A model generated the notes under the pieces. That model was not told the DNA's origin, searched no databases, and was given only the letters and a program-made list of their open reading frames with translations. DNA of 32,785 nucleotides from Methanothrix harundinacea (GTDB taxonomy: Archaea; Halobacteriota; Methanosarcinia; Methanotrichales; Methanotrichaceae), in contig LGFT01000039.1 of the NCBI GenBank assembly GCA_001509375.1, forward strand, positions 1 to 32,785, read 5' to 3'. Within the stretch, counting starts at the first letter, position 1. Each line of letters opens with the position of its first letter. Below are positions 2,327 through 32,785 of the stretch, in pieces. The translations under genes and the position numbers were made by a program.

Positions 2327-2587
2327 GAATCCAGCCCCTAAAGCCTCTCGTTGGTCCTCATTAATTAATCAATCTGTCTTTTGCTGGCCGAAATATGGCA
2401 TATCCGATCCGAAAAGGCTGAAGAAAGGCAGCGGAAGACGTCTTGTAGGATAGGATATCCCGGGCCCGCAACCGACGATCGAGACAAAACCCCGCCGAAC
2501 CCGGGGAAAACGAGATATACGTCATTGAATAGGTATTTTAATGAGAAGATACAAAGGGATTTCCGGTTAGAGATCGACCAGGGGGTT

Positions 2588-2610
2588 CTCAGGGGCGAAA
2601 GCCCCCTGAG
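2588..2610 (+). promoter_or_regulatory. Hairpin with GAAA tetraloop in the smc leader
   Basis: CTCAGGGGC and GCCCCCTGAG form a nine-pair stem (one bulged C) closed by a GAAA loop, a GNRA-type tetraloop. It lies about 65 bases before the smc start, downstream of AT-rich promoter-like DNA (2361-2376 and 2511-2545). It would be in the 5' leader RNA. A regulatory role is inferred only from position and stability. Confidence 0.4.
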
Positions 2611-2674
2611 ATTTCCGGGACGGGAGATTTATGAGACCTTCCGGACTGGATCGGAGTGGCATAGGTGGTCGAGG

Positions 2675-5600
2675 TTGCACATCAAGGAGATAGAGCTCGT
2701 AAACTTCAAGTCTTTCGGCAGGAAGGTAGTCATACCCCTCCAAAACGATTTCATCGCCATCACAGGCCCCAACGGGAGCGGCAAATCCAACGTCGTCGAC
2801 GCTCTTCTCTTCGCCTTATCCCTCTCGTCCAGCAGGGCGATGAGGGCTGAGAGGCTCCCCGACCTCATTTACCGGGGCGACAACGGCAAAAACCCCGACT
2901 TCGCCCAGGTCACCGTCAAGTTCGACAACTCCGAGAGGACCGTCCCCGTGGACGAAGATGTCGTCAAGATATCGAGGAAGGTCAGGCTGACCAAAAACAA
3001 GTACCAGAGCATCTACTATTTTAACGGCAACCCCTGCACCCAGACAGAGATCCACGACCACCTCTCCCGAGCCGGGATCACTCCCGAGGGTTACAACGTG
3101 GTGATGCAGGGGGACGTCACCAGGATCATCGAGATGTCATCCCTGGAAAGGAGGAGGATCGTCGACGAGATCGCCGGCGTCGCCGAGTTCGATGAGAAGA
3201 AGAAGAAGGCCCTCGAGGAGCTGGAGGTGGTGAGGGAGAGGATCGACCGGGGCGACGTAATCCTGGAGGAGGTCGAATCCCAGCTCGAAAGGCTCTCCGA
3301 GGAGAGGGACAGGGCCCTCGCCTACCAGGCCCAGCGGGAGGAGAAACGTCGCCAGGAGGCCTTCCTGCTTCTGGCTAAGCTGAAGGAGGCGGAGGCTGAC
3401 CTGGCGGAGCTGGAGAGGGAGGGGCTCGATCTCAGGGCGAGAGATGAGGAGATGGCCGAAAGGCTCGACCGGGAGAGGGCGGAGCTCTCTGCCCTGGAAG
3501 GTGAGCTGAAGGAGCTGGCTTCTGAGATCACCTACAAGGGCGAGGACGAGCAGATCGAGGTCAAGAGGCAGATGGTGGAGAGGAAGGGACAGATCGAGGC
3601 CGAGGAGAACAGAATCGAGATGGCCGACGCCGAGATCGTCGATCTGGAGGCAGAGCAGAGGTCCGATTACCTGGAGGCCGACCGGCTTGGCCGGGAGGAA
3701 GAGGCCCTCTCCTCGAAGATCAGAGACGGGTCGATCAGGAAGGCGAGCATCCTCGCCGAGATCGCCGAGAGGGAGGAGGCCTTCGAAGGCTACCGGGAGA
3801 AGATCGCCAGAGCCGACGCCCGCTACGCGGATCTGAGAGATCAGCTCTCTGCAGTCAAGAGAGAGTGGGACGAGGCGAAGTCGAGGGTGGCAGATCTGAT
3901 GCGGGAGAGGGACCGCCACCTCGACGCCGCCAGGAGGAGGTCGGTCGAGGGGGAGGAGGCAGCCTTTGAGATCTCCGAGGCGAAGGAGACGGCCGCCAGC
4001 CTTGATCGGGAGAAGGAGAAAATCCTTCGGGATCAAAAGAATCTTGAAGACAGGATCTCTGCCATCGAGGAGGAGAGGGACGACCTCGACTCCGCGCGGA
4101 TATCGATAAGGCGGGAGATGGCCGCCGTCGAAGAGCGTCTCCAGCGGTACCAGATGGAGAGGGCCCGGGCCGAGGCGACCCTCCGTTCGGCCGGGGAGGG
4201 GTCGGGATACAGCAGGGCCGTGGAGGCGATAAGGTCCGCCATCAGTTCTGGACAATTAGCCGGCCTCTACGGCACGATAGCCGAGCTGGGCGAGGTCGGC
4301 GAGGAGCACGCCACGGCTTTGGAGGTGGCGGCGGGGGCGAGGCTTCAGAGCATCATCGCCGAGACCGATGGGGACGCTGCCAGGGCCATCGAGAGCCTGA
4401 AGAGGTCGAAGGCCGGACGGGCTACCTTCCTCCCCCTCAACAAGATGGCCTCGGGAAGGCCCCCGGCCCCGCCGAACGAGCCTGGGGTCATCGACTACGC
4501 CCTCAACCTTGTCGGGTTCGACCCTCGGTTCCTTCCCGCCTTCTGGCACGTCTTCAGGGAGACCCTGGTGGTCCGTGACCTCTCGACGGCCAGGAGGCTG
4601 ATGGGCCGGTATCGGATGGTGACCCTGGAGGGAGAGCTTGTGGAGAGGGGGGGCGCCATGACCGGGGGCCACTTCAAGTCCAGGCTCAAGTTCGCCGCGG
4701 ACGAGAGGCAGAAGCTGGAGGAGGCGACGAGGAAGGTGGTCGCAGTCCAGGCCGAGAGGGAGGCTCTGATCGAGAGGCTCGATCGGGTCGAAAGCGAGGT
4801 CTCCGCCGTCCGTAGGGAGATGGAGGAGCTGGCCCGGGAGGCGTCCAGGATCGAGATCCGAGCAGAGGAGATCGAGGGCCAGAAGCTCAGGCTCGAACGG
4901 TCCGTCCAGGAGCGGGAGAAGAGGCTCGTCGAGATGAAGGCCGAGGCCGCCGAGGTGATGGAGAAGCTCGACTCCCTCGAACAGGACATCAGGGTGGGAG
5001 AGGCCGAATCGAAGGGCTACGAGGGGCGGGCGAAGACTCTTGAAAAGGATCTCGCGGGCTCGGAGATCCCGGAGCTTTCGGCCCTCGCCGACGGTCTGGA
5101 GTCCGAGATCCGGGGGCTGGAGCGGCGAGTCTCTGAGATCGAGGCCGAGATCACCGGCGATCGGCTCCGCCTTTCGAGCTGCTCGGCCCGGACGGCCGAG
5201 CTTGCCGCAAGAAAGGAGGCCCGGGAGGGGAAGAAGAGGGCCGCCCTCGGGAGAAAGAGCGCGGCGGCCGAACGGGTCGGAGAGTCGAAGCTCGCCCTCC
5301 ATGAACTGGCCCGAAAGGAGAGGGAGATCGAGGAGGAGCTATCAGGCCTGAAGGGAGAAAGAAGCCGGCTCCTCGACAGGACCATGGCCAAGAGCAGAGA
5401 GGTCGACTCCACCGACCGGGAGCTTGAGAGGATCAGGGCAAGGATCGCAGCGGCCGAGGGCGCGGCCCAGGAGATGAGATCGGCCGCAGACGAGCTTCGG
5501 TCCGAGATCGAGGCCTGCGGGATCGACGTCTCCGAGGAGCCCCCCAAAAGCCAGACTATAATCAGAAAGATCAACGCCCTGGAGAGGTCGATGCAGGAGC

Positions 5601-6190
5601 TGGAGCCCGTCAACATGCTGGCCATCGAGGAGTATGACCGGGTCTTCGACCGTCGGGAGACGCTGCGGGACCGTCGGGAGACGCTCCAGAGGGAGAGAGA
5701 AGACCTCCTGGAGAAGCTGGACCGGTACGAGGAGATGAAGCGGGAAGCCTTCATGGCCGCCTTCGACGGAATCAACGAGAACTTCAGGGATACCTTCCAT
5801 CGCCTTTCCGACGGCGAGGGGGAGCTGCTCCTGGAGAACGAGGAGGATCCCCTCGCCGGCGGGATGACCATCAGGGCGCGGCCTGCTCGAAAAGCCTTCC
5901 ACCGGCTGGAGGCGATGTCTGGTGGCGAGAAGAGCCTCACCGCCCTCTCCTTCATCTTCGCGATCCAGAGGTTTAGACCTGCCCCCTTCTACGCCCTGGA
6001 CGAGATTGACATGTTCCTGGACGGGGCCAACGTCGAGAGGGTGGCAAAGCTGATCAAGGGGATCGCCGAGATGGCCCAGTTCATCGTAGTCTCCTTGAGA
6101 AAGCCGATGATCCTGGAGGCAAAGTACGTCGTTGGGGTGACGATGCAAGAGAATAACATATCCACTGTGACGGGGGTGTGTCTCAACTGA
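2675..6190 (+). CDS. smc: Chromosome segregation ATPase SMC
   Basis: An 1171-residue SMC protein, the usual archaeal length. The N-terminal ABC half-domain starts HIKEIELVNFKSFG and has Walker A GPNGSGKS at residues 31-38. Long coiled coils flank a central hinge (about 510-670) that includes a Gly-rich GGAMTGG element. The C-terminal half carries the signature MSGGEKS and Walker B FYALDEID followed by the D-loop region. SMC dimers form rings with the kleisin ScpA and the ScpB subunit and compact and segregate chromosomes. The frame is open back to 2381, but those 98 residues do not resemble SMC. The TTG at 2675, preceded by AGGTGGT at 2663-2669, places the start exactly at the conserved N-terminus. 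It overlaps scpA by 13 bases and heads a five-gene cluster. Confidence 0.96.
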   Translation: MHIKEIELVNFKSFGRKVVIPLQNDFIAITGPNGSGKSNVVDALLFALSLSSSRAMRAERLPDLIYRGDNGKNPDFAQVTVKFDNSERTVPVDEDVVKISRKVRLTKNKYQSIYYFNGNPCTQTEIHDHLSRAGITPEGYNVVMQGDVTRIIEMSSLERRRIVDEIAGVAEFDEKKKKALEELEVVRERIDRGDVILEEVESQLERLSEERDRALAYQAQREEKRRQEAFLLLAKLKEAEADLAELEREGLDLRARDEEMAERLDRERAELSALEGELKELASEITYKGEDEQIEVKRQMVERKGQIEAEENRIEMADAEIVDLEAEQRSDYLEADRLGREEEALSSKIRDGSIRKASILAEIAEREEAFEGYREKIARADARYADLRDQLSAVKREWDEAKSRVADLMRERDRHLDAARRRSVEGEEAAFEISEAKETAASLDREKEKILRDQKNLEDRISAIEEERDDLDSARISIRREMAAVEERLQRYQMERARAEATLRSAGEGSGYSRAVEAIRSAISSGQLAGLYGTIAELGEVGEEHATALEVAAGARLQSIIAETDGDAARAIESLKRSKAGRATFLPLNKMASGRPPAPPNEPGVIDYALNLVGFDPRFLPAFWHVFRETLVVRDLSTARRLMGRYRMVTLEGELVERGGAMTGGHFKSRLKFAADERQKLEEATRKVVAVQAEREALIERLDRVESEVSAVRREMEELAREASRIEIRAEEIEGQKLRLERSVQEREKRLVEMKAEAAEVMEKLDSLEQDIRVGEAESKGYEGRAKTLEKDLAGSEIPELSALADGLESEIRGLERRVSEIEAEITGDRLRLSSCSARTAELAARKEAREGKKRAALGRKSAAAERVGESKLALHELARKEREIEEELSGLKGERSRLLDRTMAKSREVDSTDRELERIRARIAAAEGAAQEMRSAADELRSEIEACGIDVSEEPPKSQTIIRKINALERSMQELEPVNMLAIEEYDRVFDRRETLRDRRETLQREREDLLEKLDRYEEMKREAFMAAFDGINENFRDTFHRLSDGEGELLLENEEDPLAGGMTIRARPARKAFHRLEAMSGGEKSLTALSFIFAIQRFRPAPFYALDEIDMFLDGANVERVAKLIKGIAEMAQFIVVSLRKPMILEAKYVVGVTMQENNISTVTGVCLN

Positions 6191-6900
6191 GCTCCGTCGT
6201 CGAGGCGTTGGACCTCCATGATCCCTTCGGCCTGGATCCTGACCCGGTTCAGGTTCTCTTGGACTTGGCGAGGAAGGGGGAGATCGACCCCTGGGACGTG
6301 GACCTCACCCAGGTGACTGAGAAGTTCCTGGAGAGGATCGAGGCGATGGGGGATAGGGACCTTCCGGCCCTGGGAAGAACCCTTCTCTACGCCAGCATCC
6401 TCCTCCGGATGAAGTCCGACTCCATCGAGGAGGGGGGGGAGGAGCCCGAGGACGATCTCCTCGACGAGTTCGATGACGTAACACCCATCGTCAGGAGGCG
6501 GACCGTCGAGGGCCTCCCCGCTCCGCCGATCCGGAGGAGGACGAGAAGGCCCGTCACCCTGGACGAGCTGATCGCTGAGCTGAAGAGGGCCGAGAAGGTC
6601 GCCGAGAGGAAGGTCGGCAGGGCGAGGGAGATGCCCGAGCCGACGGTCGAGGATGCGATGGAACGGGCCCACGAGGAGGGGATCGAGGAGCGGATACGTT
6701 CCCTCCGAGGGTTGATCTTCGAGAGGCTCGCGGGCAAGGACCGGATCTCCTTCTCCGACCTCGGCGAGAGCGACGTTTTGAACTACGTCTCCCTCCTCTT
6801 CATGGCCGGGAGGAGAGAGATCTGGCTCACCCAAGAGACCCTCTTCGGCGAGCTTTATATAAGCAGGCACCCCGACGGCGAAGGGGTGCCGCTCGCATGA
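6178..6900 (+). CDS. scpA: Segregation and condensation protein A (kleisin)
   Basis: A 240-residue kleisin that bridges the SMC heads. The N-terminal part (LDLHDPFGLDPDPVQVLLDLARKG, split here as LDLHDPFGLD then VQVLLDLA, then IDPWDVDLTQVTEKFLE) is the classic ScpA helix bundle that binds the SMC neck. The segment LLYASILLRMKS at about residues 62-73 is also typical. An acidic and basic linker of about 80 residues leads to a C-terminal winged helix ending with ITLFG-like repeats (WLTQETLFGELYI). The GTG start lies within the end of smc, implying translational coupling. scpB follows after 12 bases. Confidence 0.93.
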   Translation: MSQLSSVVEALDLHDPFGLDPDPVQVLLDLARKGEIDPWDVDLTQVTEKFLERIEAMGDRDLPALGRTLLYASILLRMKSDSIEEGGEEPEDDLLDEFDDVTPIVRRRTVEGLPAPPIRRRTRRPVTLDELIAELKRAEKVAERKVGRAREMPEPTVEDAMERAHEEGIEERIRSLRGLIFERLAGKDRISFSDLGESDVLNYVSLLFMAGRREIWLTQETLFGELYISRHPDGEGVPLA

Positions 6901-6912
6901 GGTGGATCTGAT

Positions 6913-7956
6913 TTGCCATCGGAGGACGAAGACCTGGCGGCAGTGGTGGAGGCCGCCCTCTTCGCGGCCGGAAGGCCCCTCTTGGTCGGGGAGATCGCGG
7001 AGGTGACGGACCTTCCCGCCAGGACCGTCAGGATCGTGGCCGAAGGGCTGGTCCGGGACTATTCTGAGAGAGGGGGCGGGATCGAGGTGAGGGAGTTTGA
7101 GGACCGATTCGTGATGCAGGTCCGATCCTCCATAGCCGACCGAGTGAGCAAGGTCGGCCCCAAGGAGCTGGAGGCTCCCCTCCTGCGAACCCTCGCCATC
7201 ATCGCCTATAACCAGCCGATAGCCCAGAGCGAGCTTGCGAGGCTCCGGGGGAACAAGAGCTATGGCCACGTCAAGGAGCTGGAAGAGCTGGGTTTGATCC
7301 AGGCCGAGAAGGAGGGAAGGACGAAGATCATCACCACCACCAAGAGCTTTGCCGAGTACTTCGGCCTCGACTTCGACGACCCCGACTTTGTCAAGAGGGT
7401 GATGAAGGAGAGAAAGAGGCTCGGGGTCACCCCCATGTACAGAAGCCTGGCCGAGCGGATGGGCCTTGATTTTATCGTTGTCAATCCCTACAATCCCTAC
7501 AAAAACGACATTCAGCTGATGAAGAGGCTCGACCTTCTGGTCATCGCCCCCGGCTACCAGGAGAGGGCGAGAGAGCACTTTTCAGGGGAGCTGATCGAGG
7601 CGTCCATCAGGACCTTCTCTCAATTGAAGGAGAGCATAGATCTGATCGCTGAGAAGGCGGGGAGGGTCGATCCCGAGAAGGCCCAGGACCTCCAAGAGGA
7701 GATCGACTCCCTCCTTGCGGAGTACAGGGAAAGGGCGGCAGGAGCCCGTCCAATAAAGCCCCTCTCGCCGATGATTGAGGAGATCGCTCTGGATCTGGGA
7801 ATCCCGACAGATGAGAACGGGATCTCCGCCGCCCCCGACTATCGGGAGCTTGATGCCGATATCCAGGTTCCAACCCACCAGCCCTACGAGATAGACATCA
7901 TCGAGAGGATCAGGGAGCGGTACGATGCGCTCTTGAAGGGCTTGAAGAACGATTGA
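6913..7956 (+). CDS. scpB: Segregation and condensation protein B with long C-terminal extension
   Basis: The first about 165 residues form two winged-helix domains of the ScpB type: VVEAALFAAGRPLLVGEIAE and, in the second, RTLAIIAYNQPIAQSELARLRG with a KELEELGLI recognition-like helix. ScpB pairs bind the kleisin ScpA. Bacterial ScpB proteins are about 180-220 residues; this one has 347. The extra about 170 residues include a mixed alpha/beta stretch (FIVVNPYNPYKNDI, LLVIAPGY), a helical segment (about 215-280) and an acidic tail. I cannot assign the extension. The TTG start has GAGGTGGA at 6900-6907. It sits in the smc cluster with short gaps on both sides. Confidence 0.9.
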   Translation: MPSEDEDLAAVVEAALFAAGRPLLVGEIAEVTDLPARTVRIVAEGLVRDYSERGGGIEVREFEDRFVMQVRSSIADRVSKVGPKELEAPLLRTLAIIAYNQPIAQSELARLRGNKSYGHVKELEELGLIQAEKEGRTKIITTTKSFAEYFGLDFDDPDFVKRVMKERKRLGVTPMYRSLAERMGLDFIVVNPYNPYKNDIQLMKRLDLLVIAPGYQERAREHFSGELIEASIRTFSQLKESIDLIAEKAGRVDPEKAQDLQEEIDSLLAEYRERAAGARPIKPLSPMIEEIALDLGIPTDENGISAAPDYRELDADIQVPTHQPYEIDIIERIRERYDALLKGLKND

Positions 7957-11614: not shown

Positions 11615-11637
11615 GAGTCCGGCCTTCAGCCGAACTC
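11615..11637 (-). terminator. Hairpin overlapping the stop codon of the giant surface protein gene
   Basis: GAGTCCGGC and GCCGAACTC form nine pairs (one G-U) with a five-base loop that contains the stop codon of the minus-strand gene. T-rich DNA follows on that strand. Confidence 0.4.
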
Positions 11638-14600
11638 CAGCCTGCACTTTAGGGCCGCTTCCACCATGTAGGCCTCCCCGGGGTTCATCGACTCGTTCTT
11701 CTCCAGATGGACCCACCCTCCGTCCCTGTAGGTCCAAAGGAACGCCGATACGACCCCCTCCTTTACCGCTTCGGGGTAGGTGTAGCGCTTGTGATTCGCC
11801 CTTACGGCGACCTCGGAGATCGGAACCGACGCGTTCATGGGAACCCCCACCAGGTTCCACCCCTTCTGCAGCTCTACCATGTAGGGGAGATCCACCGGCT
11901 TTCCTGGAATCTCCAGGGTGAAGCTCTCCTCACCGTCGATGATGTAGCCCATTCCAGGTTTTAGGTCGGTAACGTTGAGCGCATGGTCGTCCTTGATGCT
12001 GTAGTTCCAGCCGTCTCCTGAAAGGGCGAATATCCCCCGGTAGCCTTTCCGATCGAGAGCTTTGGTGACGGAGGGATCTTTAGGGTTCAGGTGGACCGAG
12101 AAGGGGTTCCAGCCAATAGAGACGTTGACGATCTGGACCTCGCCCGGCACCAGCCTGTATTCGACGGTGAAGGTCCTGCTCTCGTTAATGGCCGGGCTCA
12201 AAACTGGCCATACTACCCGCTTCTCTCCGCCGACCAGCTCTTCACCATGCCAGACCACCCTTCCCTTCTCCTTCACCACCACCTCTTCGGCATCTTCGGG
12301 CAGGATCACCTCGCCGATGAGGGCGGGGGGAGCATTCAGGCTGAGATAGCCGTCTGAGGAATCCTTGACGATCCAGTAAATCCAGTCGGAGGACCACTCG
12401 GAGGTGGGTTTGATCGATACAGAAACTTCGTTCGACACGTTTGATTCTGCGACGTTCGAGACCTCCATCTCGTAGGGCAGCTCCGGGGTTTTCGGGATAG
12501 TGGGCCTGAAGGCGGGATCTCCGAAGAGGGCGTAAATGCTCACGGTCTGGTTGAGCATATCTTCGACAGAGACATACCAGGGCAGGTATTCGTCGATCTC
12601 TTCGAGATCGATACCCCCGGTGGCCTGGATCTTCGATATGTAAAGGTTGTTGGCAGCCATCACCGCCTGGCCGATGGTGGCGTTCTCGAATACGAGGGCC
12701 TGATACATCCTTCCTGGGTGATCATCTGATACGAATACCCAGGAATTGGCGCTCGCTCCAAGGTAGTTCACGGCTCCAGCCCTCAGGAAGGCCAAGGCCA
12801 TGGAATCTTCCAGCCTCGTGGGGATGTATATCTCGATCCCATCTCTGTAGGCTAGAACCTGGCCCTTGATCTTGGAGGTTAAGCAGGCAGTGGTGGTGGT
12901 GGTCTGGGGGGCGAGGGTCATCTGCTTTACCTGTTCCTCGTCCATGATCTGATCCATCAGCGCCCACAGGGACAGCTGCCAACCCCAATCGATGCCGTGA
13001 TAATCGAAATAGACTATGCTCTCGCCGCTGTTCATCTTGGAGGAGACCCTCTGGTAGGTCGCCTCCTCCCAGCGGAGGTTTTCAGCGTCCAATCCCGCAG
13101 CCCTCAGGTACTCGCCGATCCGAAGGGGGATCGGAGACTGGGGCCATGTGGGATAGTCGGTGGGCGACGATATCACCAGGGCAGACTCTCTCCATTCTCC
13201 TCCAATCCTGTCGTAGGCCAGGGTTCTTGCCACCATCTGGGATGCGTCGTACGCGCTCAGGCCGATTATCCTCCCAGATGCCACATCTTGGTAGCAGTCG
13301 TCGTCGAGCTGGATCATGTACTCTCTATATATGTCGTACTCAAAGGCCGTCGCCTCTTGCCTCCCTCCCGTGGAGATGAAGGGAAGAGATCCGGGACCAC
13401 CTACCACGATCAAGTACTTCGGCGAAATGTCCAGGTCTTCTACAAGCATCTGGAGGTCCGCCTCCACCTCAGCCGGGTCCAGATCCTGGGGATTCTGGTT
13501 TGCGTCCACCAAGATGCCCCTCCTCGCCCCAGCCATCTGGGCCGAGAGGAGGGAGAGCTTGGGGATCTTGGTGTGGCTGAAGGCCGTCACGTTTATGGGG
13601 GCTGCAGAGGCGACTACCTCCACTGTGAAGTTTTCGGTCCTGTGATCGGGGGCCTCTTCGCCCCTCCAGGTTTCGAGGTTGAAGGTCCAGATCCCCGGTC
13701 TGTTGAAGAGGGCGGTGGTTTTGCACTTCTTTCCTGGATTGCAGTCCGCGAAGGTCTGGCTGCCGATCCACCCGGTGGGGCTGTAGTAATTCAAAACCAC
13801 GTGGTGGGGCTGCCTCGCCACCTCCCAGGATATCTCAGTCCATCCAGGCGAAGTCTTTGCAGGACGAGTTATGTTGATCACGGGACCGTCGTCAATCCCC
13901 TTTTTTCCCTTACCGTTTTCGTCGTTGCCGTCTTCTTCGATGCCGCTATAAGTCACTCTCATCCCGCCGTCGAGGGGCTGAGTCCATCCGGCGTCGAGGG
14001 CGTGGAGTATCACCACCTCCAAGTTCAGAGTGACAAACTCGGAGGGTTCCAGACGGTCGATGGTCCAGTTTAGTTCGGTCCCGTCGAAGAAGGCGCTGTT
14101 GGTGTTCGGCTCCGTGCCGGTTAGGGGGTCGGAAAGATCAACGGATCCAGAGGCTGTGCTCCACCAGACTACAAGCCTCGCTGGCAGGATAAGGTCGGTC
14201 AGAGACAGGTTTTCGAGCTCTTCTTTTCCGCTGTTCTTCAGGGCGACCTTGAGCCGTACGATCTCCCCTTCGCTCTCGGAGGGTATCTCTGTGGGGTTCA
14301 CCTCGACTTCCAGAAGAAGGTTTTCGTCTATCTTCGTTCTCTCAAGCACCGACTTCGGCTTCGGAGCGAGGAGGGATAGGTCGCGAGAGTTGGTGAGGAC
14401 CACCGACTCGGCCTCCTCTCCGCGGGCTCTCATCTCCTGGACCAGAAGCTCGTTGTCGCCTTTGATCACCGTCAGGTTGAGGTCTCCGAGGCGAGCTTGG
14501 ACCTCGTCAGATATGGGTCCGGATGATACCACCGTGGTTGCCCCGAGGCGGATTAGGGCATCTTCAGTGGAGTTGGATAGCCCATCTCCGACGAAGAGGA

Positions 14601-16044
14601 TCGGCCAGTTGAGGTAAGAGGCGATGGCAGCGCCCGTAAGCCCTGCGCTATAGTTGTCCCCCACAAGGACGGCTCCGGGAGACCTTTCCCACCTCGAAGA
14701 GATCTCGGCTGCCATCTCAAAGCTGTCGTTGCCATAGATCCTTGAATCGCACTTCCAGAATACGTCTCCTATGCCCAGGGTCTTGCCCTCCAGCCGTTCC
14801 AGGAGCCATCGGACCGATGGGGATGGGGGCTCCAGCTCCGACCATAGGGGGGTGTAGACTACGTCATACTCGAAGACCATGCCAGAGGCTCCGCCCTCGA
14901 TCAGCTTTTCGATGTAACCGACCGTGCCCGCAACGTTCTGAGTGGATATGGTGTACTCGACATAATCGTCGCTGAGCCGGACGAAGACGGAGGTCTCCGT
15001 CATCTCAGAAGCCACCTTCATGTCCGCTGGAGCGACGGGGCTCACCACCATGAAGTCTGCCAGATCCGATATCTCAGCGAAGTTATACCCCTCGCTCCTA
15101 TCGAAGGGATCCCCGATGGCGACGCCCAGCTTTGCGGGACCCATCTCAGAGGTGATATTTGCGATCTCCTTGACGACCTCCAGGACTTGCTCCTCCTTCC
15201 ACCGGCTCCAAAGCTGGCGGTTGTAGCCGCTGGACCCCACCCTTGAGAGGTCAACGCCCGTATCGTTGTAGAACTCCTCTTTACAGACGTCGCAGAAGCA
15301 GTTATCATCACCCAGGAACCCGAAGTTATATAGTACGACTCCATCGGCGCCGTAATCCTCGATCACCGTCTCGACCCAGTCGTAGAGGAGATCTCTCGCA
15401 TCGGGATCCACGGGACAGAGCCGGTCGGCGACGACGATTCCATCAGAACCGACGGCGATCTGGGCCGATTCGGGATAAAGGTCTTGAGACCCCCCATGAA
15501 CTGAGCCGGATCTGGCGGCCGTTTCCTGCCCCCGGCCCTGGACTAGCAGCTCACCCACCAGAAGGAGGGCAGCATCTCTGTTGCTCGCCGCCAGGACTTC
15601 TTCCTCCGTGATCGCGGAATCGGAGTTTTGGGAAACTTCCAGGGTGGCGGTGACATAGGCTTCGACCCCCTCTTTCTGGGCGGATTCAACCAGACTCTTC
15701 GCGAGGTCTCCCTTGGCATCGATCACCAAGGCCGATACATCCGCTGCGACCATGGCGTGGAGGACTGAGACCGGGCCATAACGTTCGAGATCGGCCTGAC
15801 CTATCCAGCCCAGCCTCTCTCCCGCTTCGACCTCTCTTGGCATTATGAGAAGGGGCCTAGTCTCGACGCCGTCCTCCTTTGACCATATCGCAAGAGGCGT
15901 CGCGGCGACAACATCGTGCCAGTCCTCTCCCCCCACGAGGATCGTCTCTTCCAGGGATTCCGACTTCGTCCCCCTTTCCATCTGGGCTTCGGCGGCGATC
16001 GCGAAGATCGCAAACAACGTCAGGAGCGTCAAAAAGCGTCTCAA
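11626..16044 (-). CDS. Giant secreted multidomain surface protein (barrel-like, CWB2-like and C25 peptidase-like domains)
   Basis: 1472 residues starting with a Sec signal peptide (hydrophobic 4-18, cleavage after AEA). Residues about 60-410 look like a glycosidase-type TIM barrel: ADGVVLYNFGF, then a CFCDVCKEEF cysteine cluster (249-258) as in putative glycosyl hydrolase-like families. Residues about 455-535 resemble cell wall-binding repeat 2 (VLVGDNYSAGLTGAAIA, TTVVSSGPIS). Residues 575-810 are beta-sandwich-like. Residues about 875-1185 resemble the gingipain (C25) peptidase fold: VVGGPGSLPF, a YFDYHG His at 1016, a TTACLTS Cys at 1054, and the closing YALFGDPAFRP. The C-terminus has two GWN repeats (GWNPFSVHLNP, GWNLVGVPMN). 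There is no C-terminal membrane anchor. The TTG start touches the stop of the upstream gene, so the two are one operon. Domain names are by eye. Confidence 0.82.
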   Translation of the reverse strand: MRRFLTLLTLFAIFAIAAEAQMERGTKSESLEETILVGGEDWHDVVAATPLAIWSKEDGVETRPLLIMPREVEAGERLGWIGQADLERYGPVSVLHAMVAADVSALVIDAKGDLAKSLVESAQKEGVEAYVTATLEVSQNSDSAITEEEVLAASNRDAALLLVGELLVQGRGQETAARSGSVHGGSQDLYPESAQIAVGSDGIVVADRLCPVDPDARDLLYDWVETVIEDYGADGVVLYNFGFLGDDNCFCDVCKEEFYNDTGVDLSRVGSSGYNRQLWSRWKEEQVLEVVKEIANITSEMGPAKLGVAIGDPFDRSEGYNFAEISDLADFMVVSPVAPADMKVASEMTETSVFVRLSDDYVEYTISTQNVAGTVGYIEKLIEGGASGMVFEYDVVYTPLWSELEPPSPSVRWLLERLEGKTLGIGDVFWKCDSRIYGNDSFEMAAEISSRWERSPGAVLVGDNYSAGLTGAAIASYLNWPILFVGDGLSNSTEDALIRLGATTVVSSGPISDEVQARLGDLNLTVIKGDNELLVQEMRARGEEAESVVLTNSRDLSLLAPKPKSVLERTKIDENLLLEVEVNPTEIPSESEGEIVRLKVALKNSGKEELENLSLTDLILPARLVVWWSTASGSVDLSDPLTGTEPNTNSAFFDGTELNWTIDRLEPSEFVTLNLEVVILHALDAGWTQPLDGGMRVTYSGIEEDGNDENGKGKKGIDDGPVINITRPAKTSPGWTEISWEVARQPHHVVLNYYSPTGWIGSQTFADCNPGKKCKTTALFNRPGIWTFNLETWRGEEAPDHRTENFTVEVVASAAPINVTAFSHTKIPKLSLLSAQMAGARRGILVDANQNPQDLDPAEVEADLQMLVEDLDISPKYLIVVGGPGSLPFISTGGRQEATAFEYDIYREYMIQLDDDCYQDVASGRIIGLSAYDASQMVARTLAYDRIGGEWRESALVISSPTDYPTWPQSPIPLRIGEYLRAAGLDAENLRWEEATYQRVSSKMNSGESIVYFDYHGIDWGWQLSLWALMDQIMDEEQVKQMTLAPQTTTTTACLTSKIKGQVLAYRDGIEIYIPTRLEDSMALAFLRAGAVNYLGASANSWVFVSDDHPGRMYQALVFENATIGQAVMAANNLYISKIQATGGIDLEEIDEYLPWYVSVEDMLNQTVSIYALFGDPAFRPTIPKTPELPYEMEVSNVAESNVSNEVSVSIKPTSEWSSDWIYWIVKDSSDGYLSLNAPPALIGEVILPEDAEEVVVKEKGRVVWHGEELVGGEKRVVWPVLSPAINESRTFTVEYRLVPGEVQIVNVSIGWNPFSVHLNPKDPSVTKALDRKGYRGIFALSGDGWNYSIKDDHALNVTDLKPGMGYIIDGEESFTLEIPGKPVDLPYMVELQKGWNLVGVPMNASVPISEVAVRANHKRYTYPEAVKEGVVSAFLWTYRDGGWVHLEKNESMNPGEAYMVEAALKCRLEFG

Positions 16045-28556: not shown

Positions 28557-28692
28557 AGTCCGCAGACCCGGGAGACGCCCCCCCCTGGTGGAGCGAAGCG
28601 CGCCGTCCAACAGGCCCAAATAGGATAAGTCGATCATTAACATAATATTAGGGCAATTTGTCCAGGACAATTGAAAAGGCCGAAAAGCAGCG

Positions 28693-28702
28693 TTAGATAT
28701 AT
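28693..28702 (+). promoter_or_regulatory. TATA-like promoter of the symporter/DUF835 unit
   Basis: TTAGATATAT lies about 40-49 bases before the ATG at 28742. The transcript would start near 28725. Confidence 0.4.
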
Positions 28703-28741
28703 CTGAAAAGAGCCGGTAGTACATCCAGGCCTGTAGTCACC

Positions 28742-28954
28742 ATGACATTATCTCGGAAAGATCTGATGGAGCAAGATGAGTTATTGGTCTTGCTCTTTAT
28801 TCTCGGAAGCGTCCTCCTCAATTGGCCGGTCTTATCGCTGGTTGCAGCAGGAGATGAGCCTCCCTCCTGTTTTTCTATACTAGTCTACATAATCACGGTC
28901 TGGCTTTTGATAATATTCGTTGCTTATCTCTTCGACAGGTGGACCTCGAATTGA
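28742..28954 (+). CDS. Small two-helix membrane protein of the symporter unit
   Basis: 70 residues with two hydrophobic helices (about 14-33, LLVLLFILGSVLLNWPVLSL, and about 45-64, ILVYIITVWLLIIFVAYLF). Small two-helix subunits often precede sodium:solute symporter genes (for example DUF485 and DUF4212 proteins), and their order and overlap here are the same. Its end overlaps the next gene (TTGA), showing translational coupling. ATG 28742 has a weak ribosome site. It is probably a subunit or stabiliser of the large downstream membrane protein. Confidence 0.75.
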   Translation: MTLSRKDLMEQDELLVLLFILGSVLLNWPVLSLVAAGDEPPSCFSILVYIITVWLLIIFVAYLFDRWTSN

Positions 28955-31900
28955 TCAACCCCATTCTTGCCCTGGCCGCAATGGTGTTATATCTGCTCCT
29001 TCTCTTCGGCGTAGCCCATTATGCCGACCGGAAGCGGGATCAGGGCGAGAGCATAGTCTCAAACCCCTACGTCTACGCCCTATCATTCTCGGTGTACGCC
29101 ACTGCCTGGGCCTTCTACGGAAGCGTCGGCAGGGGCGCCACCGAAGGCCTCGGGTTTCTTCCCATCTACCTCGGTCCTTCCCTGGTGATGCTCCTCGGCT
29201 GGACTGTAATAAGAAAGATGATAACAATCTCTAAGGAGCACCGCCTGACTACAATAAGCGATTTCATAAGCTTCCGTTATGGGAGGAGCTATGTAATCGG
29301 GGCCCTCGTCGCCATCGCGATCCTCATAATGATAACCCCTTATGTCGCGCTCCAGCTGATAGCCATCTCTGAGTCCTTGACGATAATAAGCGGGCCGTAT
29401 CACGAGATCCTGGGAGTTAGAAGGCTGATAGTGGCCGTCCTTCTGGGGGTATTTGCGATAATCTTTGGGACGAGACATCTCGACCCACTGGAGCGGCATG
29501 AGGGTTTGATCGCGGTGGTAGCCTTCGAGTCGGTGGTGAAGTTGTTGGCCTTCCTGGTTGCTGGCCTCTACATAACCTACGGCCTCTTCGGCGGTTACAG
29601 CGAAATAGTTAGCGGGATCGCGAGCCATCCGGAGTATTCGGGCCTTCTGAAGGTAGATTACGTCTCCTGGTTCTCTCTATTGGTGATGTCTTCCTTTGCT
29701 ATCCTCTTTCTCCCTCGGCAGTTTCATGTTATGGTGGTGGAGAACTCCGATGAGGAGCACTTGAAGAAGGCGATGTGGCTTTTTCCCCTATACATGCTGC
29801 TCATAAACCTCTTCGTCCCGGCGGTGGCCTGGGGCGGCCTCCTCCTGGGGGCGGGGGGAAGGACGGACATGTTCATGGTCTCTATCCCCATGAATCAGGG
29901 CCAGGAGCTTTTAGCCCTTCTGGTCTTCATCGGGGGCACCTCGGCGGCCACGGCCATGGTACTCGTCTCGGCGGTGACGGTGGGGACGATGATGCTGAAC
30001 GACCTGGAGATGCCCTACATCGTCCGCAAGATCGGCAAGGGACGAGACCTACCGTCTTTGATCCTCTCCCTGAAACGGTTGAACATAATTCTGGTTCTGG
30101 CTCTCGGGTACCTTTACTCTCTTCTGGTGGGCTTTCCCGCCCTCGTGGATATAGGCCTGCTGTCGTTTCTCGCCGCCTGTCAGCTCGCCCCGGCGGCCCT
30201 CGGTGGCCTCTACTGGAAGAAGGGGTGCAGGGTGGGGGCGATGGCGGGGATGGTCGCGGGCTTCCTCATATGGATTTACGCCGCCCTCCTCCCCACCCTC
30301 GTAGATGCTGGATGGGTCTCGGACGATCTGATCGCAAACGGCCCCTTCGGGATCGCTCTCCTCCGCCCTACGGCCCTCTTCGGCCTCCAGCTCGACGTCT
30401 GGACTCACGCCTTTTTCTGGTCGATTCTGGCCAACTTCACCCTCTACGTCCTATTCTCCCTCATCCACGAGCCCACCGATGAGGAGAAGGCCTTAGCCGA
30501 CGGCGTCGTCGACATTTACAAGGTCTCTCCAAGGATCGAGCCCTGCCCGGTTCTTCCCTTTGGTGAGGGCGTGGTGATAAGGGTCGGGACGGTGGACGAG
30601 CTGGAGGGGACGGTGGCTCGTTACATCGGAGCCGAGAGGGCGAAGAACGTCGTCGAGCTGAACCTCGCCGACCTGAATACCACAAGAGACGGGATAGACG
30701 CGAGGCAGCTATTCGAGCTGAGGGACCGGCTCGAGAAGACCCTCACCGGCTCGGTAGGCCCCTCGGCCACCAGGATGATCGTCGAAGAGGAGGTGGCTGT
30801 AAAGCCCGTCGTCGAGCTGATCAAGGGGACGATGCCCCTATATTTCCTCGATCCGGGAAAGGTCTACCTAGTCCAGGAAAAGGCCTACGACGTCTTCACA
30901 GACCAGATAACTCATGGGGTGGAGGGGCTGTGTATAACTTCCAAGGATCCCGAAGAGATCAGGCTGAGATGGAAATTCACAGAGACGCCGATCGTCAGGC
31001 TCAGCCATGAGAAGGGCAGGGGGGAGAGGTACATAGCTCCCAACAACCTCCCTCTCCTCTTCATAACCATAAAGTCCTTCGTGGAGAGCAGCAAAAATAG
31101 CATAATCCTCTTGGACAGCCTGGAAGAGCTGATCGAGGAGAACGCCTCCCTAGTCCCCGAGTCGGAGATCCTCGACTTCGTCCACGCCCTCGAGGACCTC
31201 TCCGGGAAGGGCCGGACGAGGCTTGTGATCCAGGCAAGGCCTGAGTTCGTGAACAAAAAGCTGACCTCTGATATCACCGAGACCCAGCAGCTCATATTCC
31301 TCTTGGGTCCCCTTTCAGCTTATCTCTTCAAGGCATTTGCGGCCTCCTTTTTGAAGAGGCTCGATGAGCCAGCGAAGATTGCGGTTCAAAGGAAGATCTC
31401 CGAGTTGCTGGAGGCGAGCAAGCCCTTGTCTCCACCGGGGAGGGAAGATGAGGACGCAGCTTGCGACCCGGAGATGCGCGAGATCGAGGAGCCTCGATGG
31501 GGCGGGTTGAAGGTCGACTCAAAATCGAGGATGAGCCGCGGGGAGTTTTTCGCAGCTTTGAGGCGGCTTGCGAAGGCGATCGGAGAGTATGATCCGAGCT
31601 TCGACCTCTCTGGTGCCGCAAAACCCTTGATGGCAAAATACGGCCTGAACCCCATTGAGCTCCGGCTCACACCCGGGACCACCTACGTCATCGAGGAAGA
31701 TAAGCCTGTAAAGAGCCTCAGGGCCTTCAGCGACCTCGTCAACCGTGGGGTGGAGGGTCTTTGCATAAGCAGGTACCACCCCGAAAAGCTGATGGATAGG
31801 TACGGCCTATCCCCAAAGAGGGTTATCTGGCTCACTCAGTCGGCGGGGATCGGTCCTCAGTACAGGCACGTCGATCCCACCAACTTCCCAAGGCTCTCCG

Positions 31901-32145
31901 GAATGATCTCCGACTTCCTCTCCAAAGCAGAGGAGCCCCTCATTCTGTTGGAGGGTCTCGGCTACCTCATAACTCAGAGCAACTACGAGTCTGTGTTGAG
32001 GTTCATCCAGTCTCAGAGGGACGAGGTCGCCCTCAAGAAAGGGATATTGATAATCCACATTGACCCTCTCGCTCTGGACACCAAAGAGAGGCACCGGCTG
32101 GAGAGCGAGATGGAGATTCTCGAGGTCGAAGACGAGAAATCATAA
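28951..32145 (+). CDS. Sodium:solute symporter-like sensor fused to STAC-like and two DUF835 domains
   Basis: About 1064 residues. Residues 1-500 are a thirteen-helix SLC5/SSS-type domain that most resembles the sensor part of CbrA/PutP-like histidine kinases: YALSFSVYATAWAFYGSVGR, GLGFLPIYLGP and TTISDFISFRYG. Residues about 540-620 look like a STAC linker (ERAKNVVEL, LTGSVGPSATRMIV). Instead of a histidine kinase, two DUF835 domains follow: about 633-790 (VYLVQEKAYDVF, GVEGLCITSKDPEEI, SIILLDSLEELI) and about 906-1055 (TYVIEEDKPVKSL, GVEGLCISRYHPEKL, PLILLEGLGYLI). No H-box or ATP-binding N-box is seen. It probably senses or imports a solute and passes the signal through DUF835. TTG 28951 has AGGTGG eight bases upstream; GTG 28939 is an alternative. 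Confidence 0.85.
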   Translation: MINPILALAAMVLYLLLLFGVAHYADRKRDQGESIVSNPYVYALSFSVYATAWAFYGSVGRGATEGLGFLPIYLGPSLVMLLGWTVIRKMITISKEHRLTTISDFISFRYGRSYVIGALVAIAILIMITPYVALQLIAISESLTIISGPYHEILGVRRLIVAVLLGVFAIIFGTRHLDPLERHEGLIAVVAFESVVKLLAFLVAGLYITYGLFGGYSEIVSGIASHPEYSGLLKVDYVSWFSLLVMSSFAILFLPRQFHVMVVENSDEEHLKKAMWLFPLYMLLINLFVPAVAWGGLLLGAGGRTDMFMVSIPMNQGQELLALLVFIGGTSAATAMVLVSAVTVGTMMLNDLEMPYIVRKIGKGRDLPSLILSLKRLNIILVLALGYLYSLLVGFPALVDIGLLSFLAACQLAPAALGGLYWKKGCRVGAMAGMVAGFLIWIYAALLPTLVDAGWVSDDLIANGPFGIALLRPTALFGLQLDVWTHAFFWSILANFTLYVLFSLIHEPTDEEKALADGVVDIYKVSPRIEPCPVLPFGEGVVIRVGTVDELEGTVARYIGAERAKNVVELNLADLNTTRDGIDARQLFELRDRLEKTLTGSVGPSATRMIVEEEVAVKPVVELIKGTMPLYFLDPGKVYLVQEKAYDVFTDQITHGVEGLCITSKDPEEIRLRWKFTETPIVRLSHEKGRGERYIAPNNLPLLFITIKSFVESSKNSIILLDSLEELIEENASLVPESEILDFVHALEDLSGKGRTRLVIQARPEFVNKKLTSDITETQQLIFLLGPLSAYLFKAFAASFLKRLDEPAKIAVQRKISELLEASKPLSPPGREDEDAACDPEMREIEEPRWGGLKVDSKSRMSRGEFFAALRRLAKAIGEYDPSFDLSGAAKPLMAKYGLNPIELRLTPGTTYVIEEDKPVKSLRAFSDLVNRGVEGLCISRYHPEKLMDRYGLSPKRVIWLTQSAGIGPQYRHVDPTNFPRLSGMISDFLSKAEEPLILLEGLGYLITQSNYESVLRFIQSQRDEVALKKGILIIHIDPLALDTKERHRLESEMEILEVEDEKS

Positions 32146-32169
32146 ATAACTGGTAATAGGTGACTTTCC

Positions 32170-32424
32170 GTGGTTCAAGTGGAGATCATAATCTTGGGGT
32201 TGTTGCTGCTATTGGCGATCTACGTCGCTTTCAGCCTGATAATGAAGTCCGCCAAGTTCCTGGCCGTGAACACCCTATTCGGCCTGATCATCCTGTACCT
32301 CGCCAACGTCATCGGTGGCCTTTCGATCCCCTACAGCCTGCCGGTGCTTCTGATCTGTGCGATCCTGGGGGCCCCGGGAGCGATCGCTGTCATCATCCTG
32401 AACCTCTTCGGTCTGGCGTTCTGA
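32170..32424 (+). CDS. BofA-like small membrane protein
   Basis: 84 residues with two or three hydrophobic helices. The segment KFLAVNTLFGLIILYLANVI followed by LPVLLICAILGAPGAIAVIIL matches the archaeal branch of the pro-sigmaK processing inhibitor BofA family, whose role outside Bacillus is unknown. GTG 32170 has AGGTGA seven bases upstream. It is 24 bases after the DUF835 fusion gene, so the three genes 28742-32424 look like one operon. Confidence 0.78.
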   Translation: MVQVEIIILGLLLLLAIYVAFSLIMKSAKFLAVNTLFGLIILYLANVIGGLSIPYSLPVLLICAILGAPGAIAVIILNLFGLAF

Positions 32425-32439: not shown

Positions 32440-32785
32440 TCAGGGGCTTTGGCGAGGGAGCAGTGATGGAGATACTTTCATTCTGTCCCTCATGCTCGGT
32501 CCTGCGAGGACGATAGGATCGAACTCCTTCGACTCCCCCATCGGATCTATCCCGTTCTCATCGCACACTTGAATGAACTCGTCTCGATTCTCTCCGTCCA
32601 GAACCCGGCTATGCCAGCCTCCGTCGAGACGATCGGACTTCAACTTGATCATTATCACAAACCCCTCCTCGATCATATTCGTCAGGATCTCTGCAGGGTC
32701 TTTGTGCCAGAGGGGCAGAAGGAGCTGGATTTTGAGCTTCTGGCAGACTTCCACCAGACGGTTTCGCCGATGGTTCGATCTGATG
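32440..32785 (-). CDS. Dph6-type diphthine-ammonia ligase family protein (5' partial)
   Basis: 115 visible residues, open to the window edge. RLVEVCQKLKIQLLLPLWHK, then an EILTNMIEEGF helix, GGWHSRVLD and the closing GESKEFDPIVLAG match the C-terminal half of the adenine nucleotide alpha-hydrolase-like family of Dph6 (MJ0570 type), which makes the amide of diphthamide on translation elongation factor 2. The N-terminal ATP-binding domain lies outside. After MRDRMKV the protein stops about 15 residues later, without the usual final strands, so the C-terminus may be shortened. It is convergent with the BofA-like gene with a 15-base gap. Confidence 0.82.
   Translation of the reverse strand, partial: IRSNHRRNRLVEVCQKLKIQLLLPLWHKDPAEILTNMIEEGFVIMIKLKSDRLDGGWHSRVLDGENRDEFIQVCDENGIDPMGESKEFDPIVLAGPSMRDRMKVSPSLLPRQSP

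Follow-up and report, generated by a model that had tools for sequence, protein, structure and literature searches.

The window analysed here, a stretch of 32,785 nucleotides from Methanothrix harundinacea that makes up one entire contig of a 2.38 Mb genome (completeness 97.5%), encodes a protein in which the SLC5-STAC front end of CbrA-type sensor kinases is joined to two DUF835 domains. This fusion is real and conserved, and apparently undescribed so far; no description of an SLC5-STAC-DUF835 fusion was found in the literature searched. In our preferred reading, to which we assign a probability of roughly 0.6, it is a CbrX-CbrA-type transceptor of bacterial origin that was acquired by an ancestor of the Methanotrichaceae and rewired to archaeal KaiC-type signalling. 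The three open reading frames of the original prediction (70, 1068 and 84 aa) were all confirmed at their positions and are listed in Table 1, together with the domains of the fusion and the remains of a lost upstream gene.

Table 1. Features of the fusion locus, in window coordinates.
Feature	Position	Strand	Remarks
kaiC 3'-end fossil	28682..28737	+	K-A-A-L-D-I-S-E-K, frameshift, V-H-P-G-L-stop
GATATATC, within former kaiC codons	28696..28703	+	noticed by eye; nearly unchanged in 9/9 genomes of the genus
cbrX-like gene, 70 aa	28742..28954	+	two predicted membrane helices, N-W-P ... W motif; 30/30 loci
SLC5-STAC-DUF835-DUF835 fusion gene	28939..32145	+	1068 aa, GTG start
SLC5/SSS transporter domain, residues 16-510	28984..30468	+	phmmer to 10ED; pocket and lysine alignment (K201)
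STAC domain, residues 546-624	30574..30810	+	10ED alignment; IGxxxA motif; four modelled helices
DUF835 domain 1, residues 646-774	30874..31260	+	51.9 bits; no P-loop
Helical spacer, fast-evolving, residues 791-904	31309..31650	+	43% mean identity, dN/dS 0.24-0.33
DUF835 domain 2, residues 922-1058	31702..32112	+	127.6 bits; KaiC/RecA fold, no P-loop
BofA-like small membrane protein, 84 aa	32170..32424	+	GTG start; 39.7 bits; conserved neighbour

The CbrA-type front end claimed for this protein is borne out by a phmmer alignment of residues 16-617 (E 3.6e-82) with 10ED, the cryo-EM structure of the CbrX-CbrA SLC5-STAC of Pseudomonas. The likeness thus runs over 600 residues and reaches the STAC domain of 10ED; the Pfam SSF match to the transporter part is marginal (26.2 bits, cut-off 22.8). 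The signature of STAC, given as LGPx(x)A (PMC4834066), is kept in the form (L/I)Gx3A with the proline mostly lost, and reads IGxxxA in most Methanotrichaceae members. Four helices are predicted in the STAC region (pLDDT about 60-78) by a full-length AlphaFold model that has a pLDDT of 45 and a membrane part too poor for use. Among the histidine-pocket residues of CbrA named with the 10ED structure (PMC13022988), Y51, W55, A56, F71, Y75 and F406 are identical in the aligned fusion, and CbrA S53 and F248 are replaced by T55 and S251, respectively. The lysine occupying the former sodium site (Na2) of CbrA, K196, corresponds to K201 of the fusion and was found in all sequences aligned, which points to proton-type, sodium-independent coupling of the SLC5 domain. 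The ligand cannot be read off the pocket, since its residues are common to histidine, pyruvate and other sensors; those of the fusion, for example, are also present in the pyruvate sensor RpuS, bar a few changes. Identification of the ligand via the pocket was therefore dropped.

The C-terminal part of the protein is not a kinase. DUF835 (PF05763) matched twice (51.9 and 127.6 bits, gathering cut-off 33.1), and searches of Pfam and NCBIfam found no kinase, ATPase or PAS domain in the fusion; the DHp and CA kinase domains are likewise absent by the HisKA and HATPase models, which the same search recovered in the bacterial relatives L007, L008 and L058. The replacement of the kinase by two DUF835 domains, as originally predicted, is thereby upheld. 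A degenerate kinase core in residues 620-1060, the finding that would have told against it, is ruled out by these searches together with an AF2 model and Foldseek; the stretch also includes the fast-evolving helical spacer (about 791-904). The second DUF835 domain was modelled from 12 sequences (pLDDT 82, pTM 0.81), and the top Foldseek matches of the model are KaiC CI and RecA (E 1.5e-5, TM about 0.55). An NCBIfam FlaH match to the fusion protein (1.9e-6) falls below its cut-off. Neither DUF835 domain contains a P-loop (Walker A, GxxxxGK(S/T)) in 26 full-length relatives, and profile comparison of DUF835 with the neighbouring KaiC (hhalign, with shallow and more diverse alignments) gave no signal. 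DUF835 has been listed as an inactivated KaiC-like domain, iKaiC (PMC5847659), and the modelled fold agrees with that listing of an inactivated KaiC/RecA-type domain. The description of DUF835 in the original prediction as a poorly understood archaeal signalling domain was thus incomplete, because this listing means that the domain is not a blank.

Elsewhere in the phylum DUF835 forms the C-terminal end of REC, PAS and GAF proteins, and in one family a putative helix-turn-helix follows it. The archaeal REC-PAS-DUF835 and HAMP-PAS-DUF835 proteins (iKaiC; PMC5847659) share with the fusion a C-terminal DUF835 of inactivated KaiC fold, but have soluble or HAMP/PAS inputs, no transporter and, in those compared, a single DUF835. 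In two HAMP-PAS-DUF835 proteins (L151, L152) the C-terminus reads as a helix-turn-helix, suggesting that DUF835 may be tied directly to DNA binding in proteins of this type. Some Methanotrichaceae genera also encode a DUF835 protein of 242 aa that stands alone and carries a cysteine-rich insert (L158 in G013); it was not found in the genome of the window.

The fusion gene is preceded by a small gene that overlaps it by 16 nt. In all 30 Methanotrichaceae loci examined, the fusion gene is overlapped or directly adjoined by an ORF of 68-71 aa that shows the N-W-P ... W pattern. For the 70-aa ORF dN is about 0.14-0.26 against a dS of 0.64-1.45, a pattern without counterpart in the other frames, and these codon statistics show the ORF to be translated. 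Similar ORFs stand ahead of the SLC5-STAC kinase in 18 of 19 Nitrospirota loci and ahead of SLC5-STAC kinases in Paracoccus and Cupriavidus, as well as ahead of a CbrA-like kinase in Amphritea; the P and W are common to the Methanotrichaceae peptide and these bacterial CbrX-like ORFs. A search for direct sequence homology to CbrX of Pseudomonas detected none, and comparison of the CbrX-like profile with the PDB returned weak, chance-like matches to monocarboxylate transporters, with 10ED not among them. The peptide is identified as resembling CbrX from where its gene lies, how long it is, its pattern of two helices and the intermediate forms in bacteria. In P. putida the cbrX and cbrA genes overlap by 17 nt and are translationally coupled (PMC6591292), an arrangement closely matched here, and the two-helix subunit coupled by overlap that had been predicted is accordingly retained, as a CbrX-like peptide. 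In the Pseudomonas complex the STAC of CbrA docks beneath SLC5, to which CbrX attaches, the CbrX hairpin contacting TM3 and TM8 of CbrA (PMC13022988). On Paracoccus plasmids (L058, L060), where a small overlapping ORF precedes the SLC5-STAC kinase, the kinase gene is grouped with genes for a nucleotidyltransferase-substrate-binding-domain protein and an exonuclease-domain protein.

The fusion is present in 37/37 Methanotrichaceae genomes searched, complete ones included, with 56-88% identity, and is split across two contigs in one of the 37; the relatives that bear names, Methanothrix and Candidatus Methanocrinis natronophilus, identify the family as Methanotrichaceae. When 394 genomes were drawn evenly across the phylum, 15 matched at E <= 1e-30; every match fell within Methanotrichaceae, and nothing comparable turned up outside this family. 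The lack of the fusion in relatives, which the original prediction had linked to a chimera, is therefore not what is observed, and an assembly artefact is ruled out. Purifying selection acts on the SLC5, STAC and both DUF835 domains (dN/dS 0.02-0.19), and the spacer between the DUF835 domains is the least constrained part (dN/dS 0.24-0.33, mean identity 43%). That the gene is a functionless, decaying remnant, for which the decay of an adjoining kaiC gene in the genus of the window might be quoted, or else a chimera, is contradicted by the occurrence in all 37 genomes and by the constraint on its domains, and we consider such an explanation practically excluded.

The closest SLC5-STAC relatives found outside the Methanotrichaceae (45% identity; L007, L008) belong to Nitrospirota and have the arrangement SLC5-STAC-PAS-HisKA-HATPase; their kinase gene is flanked by a CbrX-like ORF on its 5' side and a gene for an NtrC-type regulator on its 3' side. 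Unlike the fusion, they possess an active-type kinase output. The archaeal fusions form one clade (98*) when placed in a tree alongside SLC5-STAC sequences of Nitrospirota and proteobacteria, and the same tree singles out no donor lineage. The likeness to CbrA and CbrX, combined with KaiC-like DUF835 domains that lack a P-loop, suggests that the module was acquired and its kinase exchanged: a bacterial cbrX-cbrA-type pair was likely acquired once, with the kinase apparently swapped for tandem DUF835.

A connection to KaiC is also seen in the gene neighbourhood. Directly upstream of the cbrX-like gene, 15/30 loci carry a gene for an active-type ATPase of the KaiC family (PF06745, 149 bits), N-terminally truncated in one of them (L021); the locus lacks this gene in 9/9 genomes of the genus to which the window belongs and in several other genomes. 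The window retains a fossil of its 3' end, whose stop codon sits where kaiC ends in other genera; local DNA alignment of the fossil with the kaiC 3' end of L020 scores 52, compared with a maximum of 36 over 300 shuffles, and more readable remnants are present at L011, L012 and L036. This upstream gene of the relatives, decayed in the present genus, was missed in the original prediction, leaving its account of the locus incomplete. The octamer GATATATC may today be a candidate TATA box, although this is a guess. Given the genes at half of the loci and the remnants at others, KaiC is an old neighbour of the fusion; given its loss from the locus across the genus of the window, where the window genome encodes elsewhere only a distant KaiC (30% identity), it is not obligatory. 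A plausible view is that KaiC is a partner of the KaiC-like DUF835 domains, yet a dispensable one. In the upstream KaiC proteins of L019-L035 the catalytic-glutamate position varies by genus (SEPP versus GGPP or GHPE), as if ATPase activity were being lost in some genera.

The several losses of kaiC without loss of the fusion, and the fact that its two domains are the sole DUF835 found in the window genome, would fit a pure receptor, in which SLC5 binds its solute without transport and the tandem DUF835 domains recruit some non-KaiC partner. The transport residues are intact in the alignment, which argues against this explanation, and we regard it as quite improbable.

In the transceptor that we prefer, the SLC5 domain would bind a small solute and probably move it together with protons, with the cbrX-like peptide packed on the SLC5 domain. 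The STAC bundle beneath the transporter would read the conformation of SLC5, so that solute binding shifts STAC, and this shift would alter the assembly of the DUF835 domains with each other, with KaiC-type ATPases or with other partners. The DUF835 output would thus substitute for histidine-to-aspartate phosphotransfer. An unlikely alternative is that SLC5 is a proton-coupled importer gated by its STAC-DUF835 tail according to the cytoplasmic state, with no outward signal. Retention of the Na2-site lysine and the pocket, the strong constraint on SLC5 and the lack of a cognate regulator gene adjoining the fusion would suit such a regulated transporter, as would the histidine transport by CbrA attributed to PMC7096432 in PMC13022988. 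Close homologues of the fusion are nevertheless sensor kinases, DUF835 is elsewhere the C-terminal part of PAS and REC signalling proteins, and CbrA truncated to remove the kinase part gives no growth on histidine (PMC13022988).

Several known systems resemble the fusion in part. CbrX-CbrA shares the SLC5-STAC unit, the Na2-site lysine and the overlapping upstream peptide gene, but the fusion lacks the PAS, DHp and CA domains and an adjoining response regulator, and differs at the position of the pocket residue F248. The acetate and pyruvate sensors CrbS (MxtR) and RpuS (PMC5715377, PMC9100948) have an SLC5-STAC front, with a largely identical pocket in RpuS, but are hybrid kinases with LuxR-type regulators and no DUF835. 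A transporter fold also serves as sensor input in the Amt-fused ammonium sensor kinase (PMC5764959), where the transporter is unrelated and the output is a histidine kinase. The fusion was predicted to be a new signal-transduction design, and is better described as a variant of the SLC5-STAC transceptors with a KaiC-like output. One proposal sees signalling in archaea as combining parts from bacteria with a native system based on KaiC (PMC5847659); the fusion is a concrete case, with a bacterial input and its peptide, an archaeal output and an active-type KaiC gene that adjoins in many relatives. DUF835 thereby gains a defined and testable input, and the STAC adaptor is, by implication, paired with a non-kinase output. 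If the transceptor reading is true, the acetate-consuming Methanotrichaceae have spliced a bacterial receptor module to the KaiC signalling network of archaea, which would be a likely way of connecting a sensor borrowed from bacteria to that network.

Indirect evidence makes acetate, or else a related short carboxylate, our favoured ligand: acs occurs in the sequence fetched around 3 of the 19 Nitrospirota SLC5-STAC kinase loci, CrbS, itself an SLC5-STAC kinase, regulates acs and actP (PMC5715377), and acetate is the substrate of Methanothrix (PMC3426162). No acetate genes occur among the neighbours of the archaeal fusion genes, and the AceP-type acetate permease encoded in the window genome counts against an acetate ligand. 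The AceP gene of strain Mx is reported to be impaired (PMC10598746); this strain retains the fusion (L004). We would put forward only tentatively the wider idea of a transceptor class that signals via assembly of KaiC-type proteins rather than by phosphotransfer, and that senses acetate in acetate-consuming methanogens.

Of the two small membrane partners originally proposed, the two-helix peptide stands and the case for the BofA-like protein is weaker. The latter matches BofA (PF07441; 39.7 bits, cut-off 26.1) but scores under the stricter cut-off of NCBIfam spore_BofA. Its gene lies immediately 3' of the fusion in 25/28 testable loci and is single-copy; it also occurs in fusion-free Methanosarcinaceae, and is unlinked to the fusion in the Methanotrichaceae genera g6 and g10. 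The protein is therefore a conserved neighbour and not a shown subunit, and its candidacy as a dedicated subunit is unsupported.

Beyond it, a partial Dph6-like diphthine-ammonia ligase (PF01902, 63.9 bits; 32440-32754 on the minus strand) heads into the contig end, and in many relatives, too, a gene on the minus strand comes after the locus. Elsewhere the window contains a complete condensin set, with adjoining genes for SMC (1269 aa), ScpA and ScpB (2381-7956), and, on the minus strand (11626-16044), a gene for a 1472-aa protein that combines a C25 (gingipain-family) peptidase domain with a CWB2 cell-wall-binding repeat.
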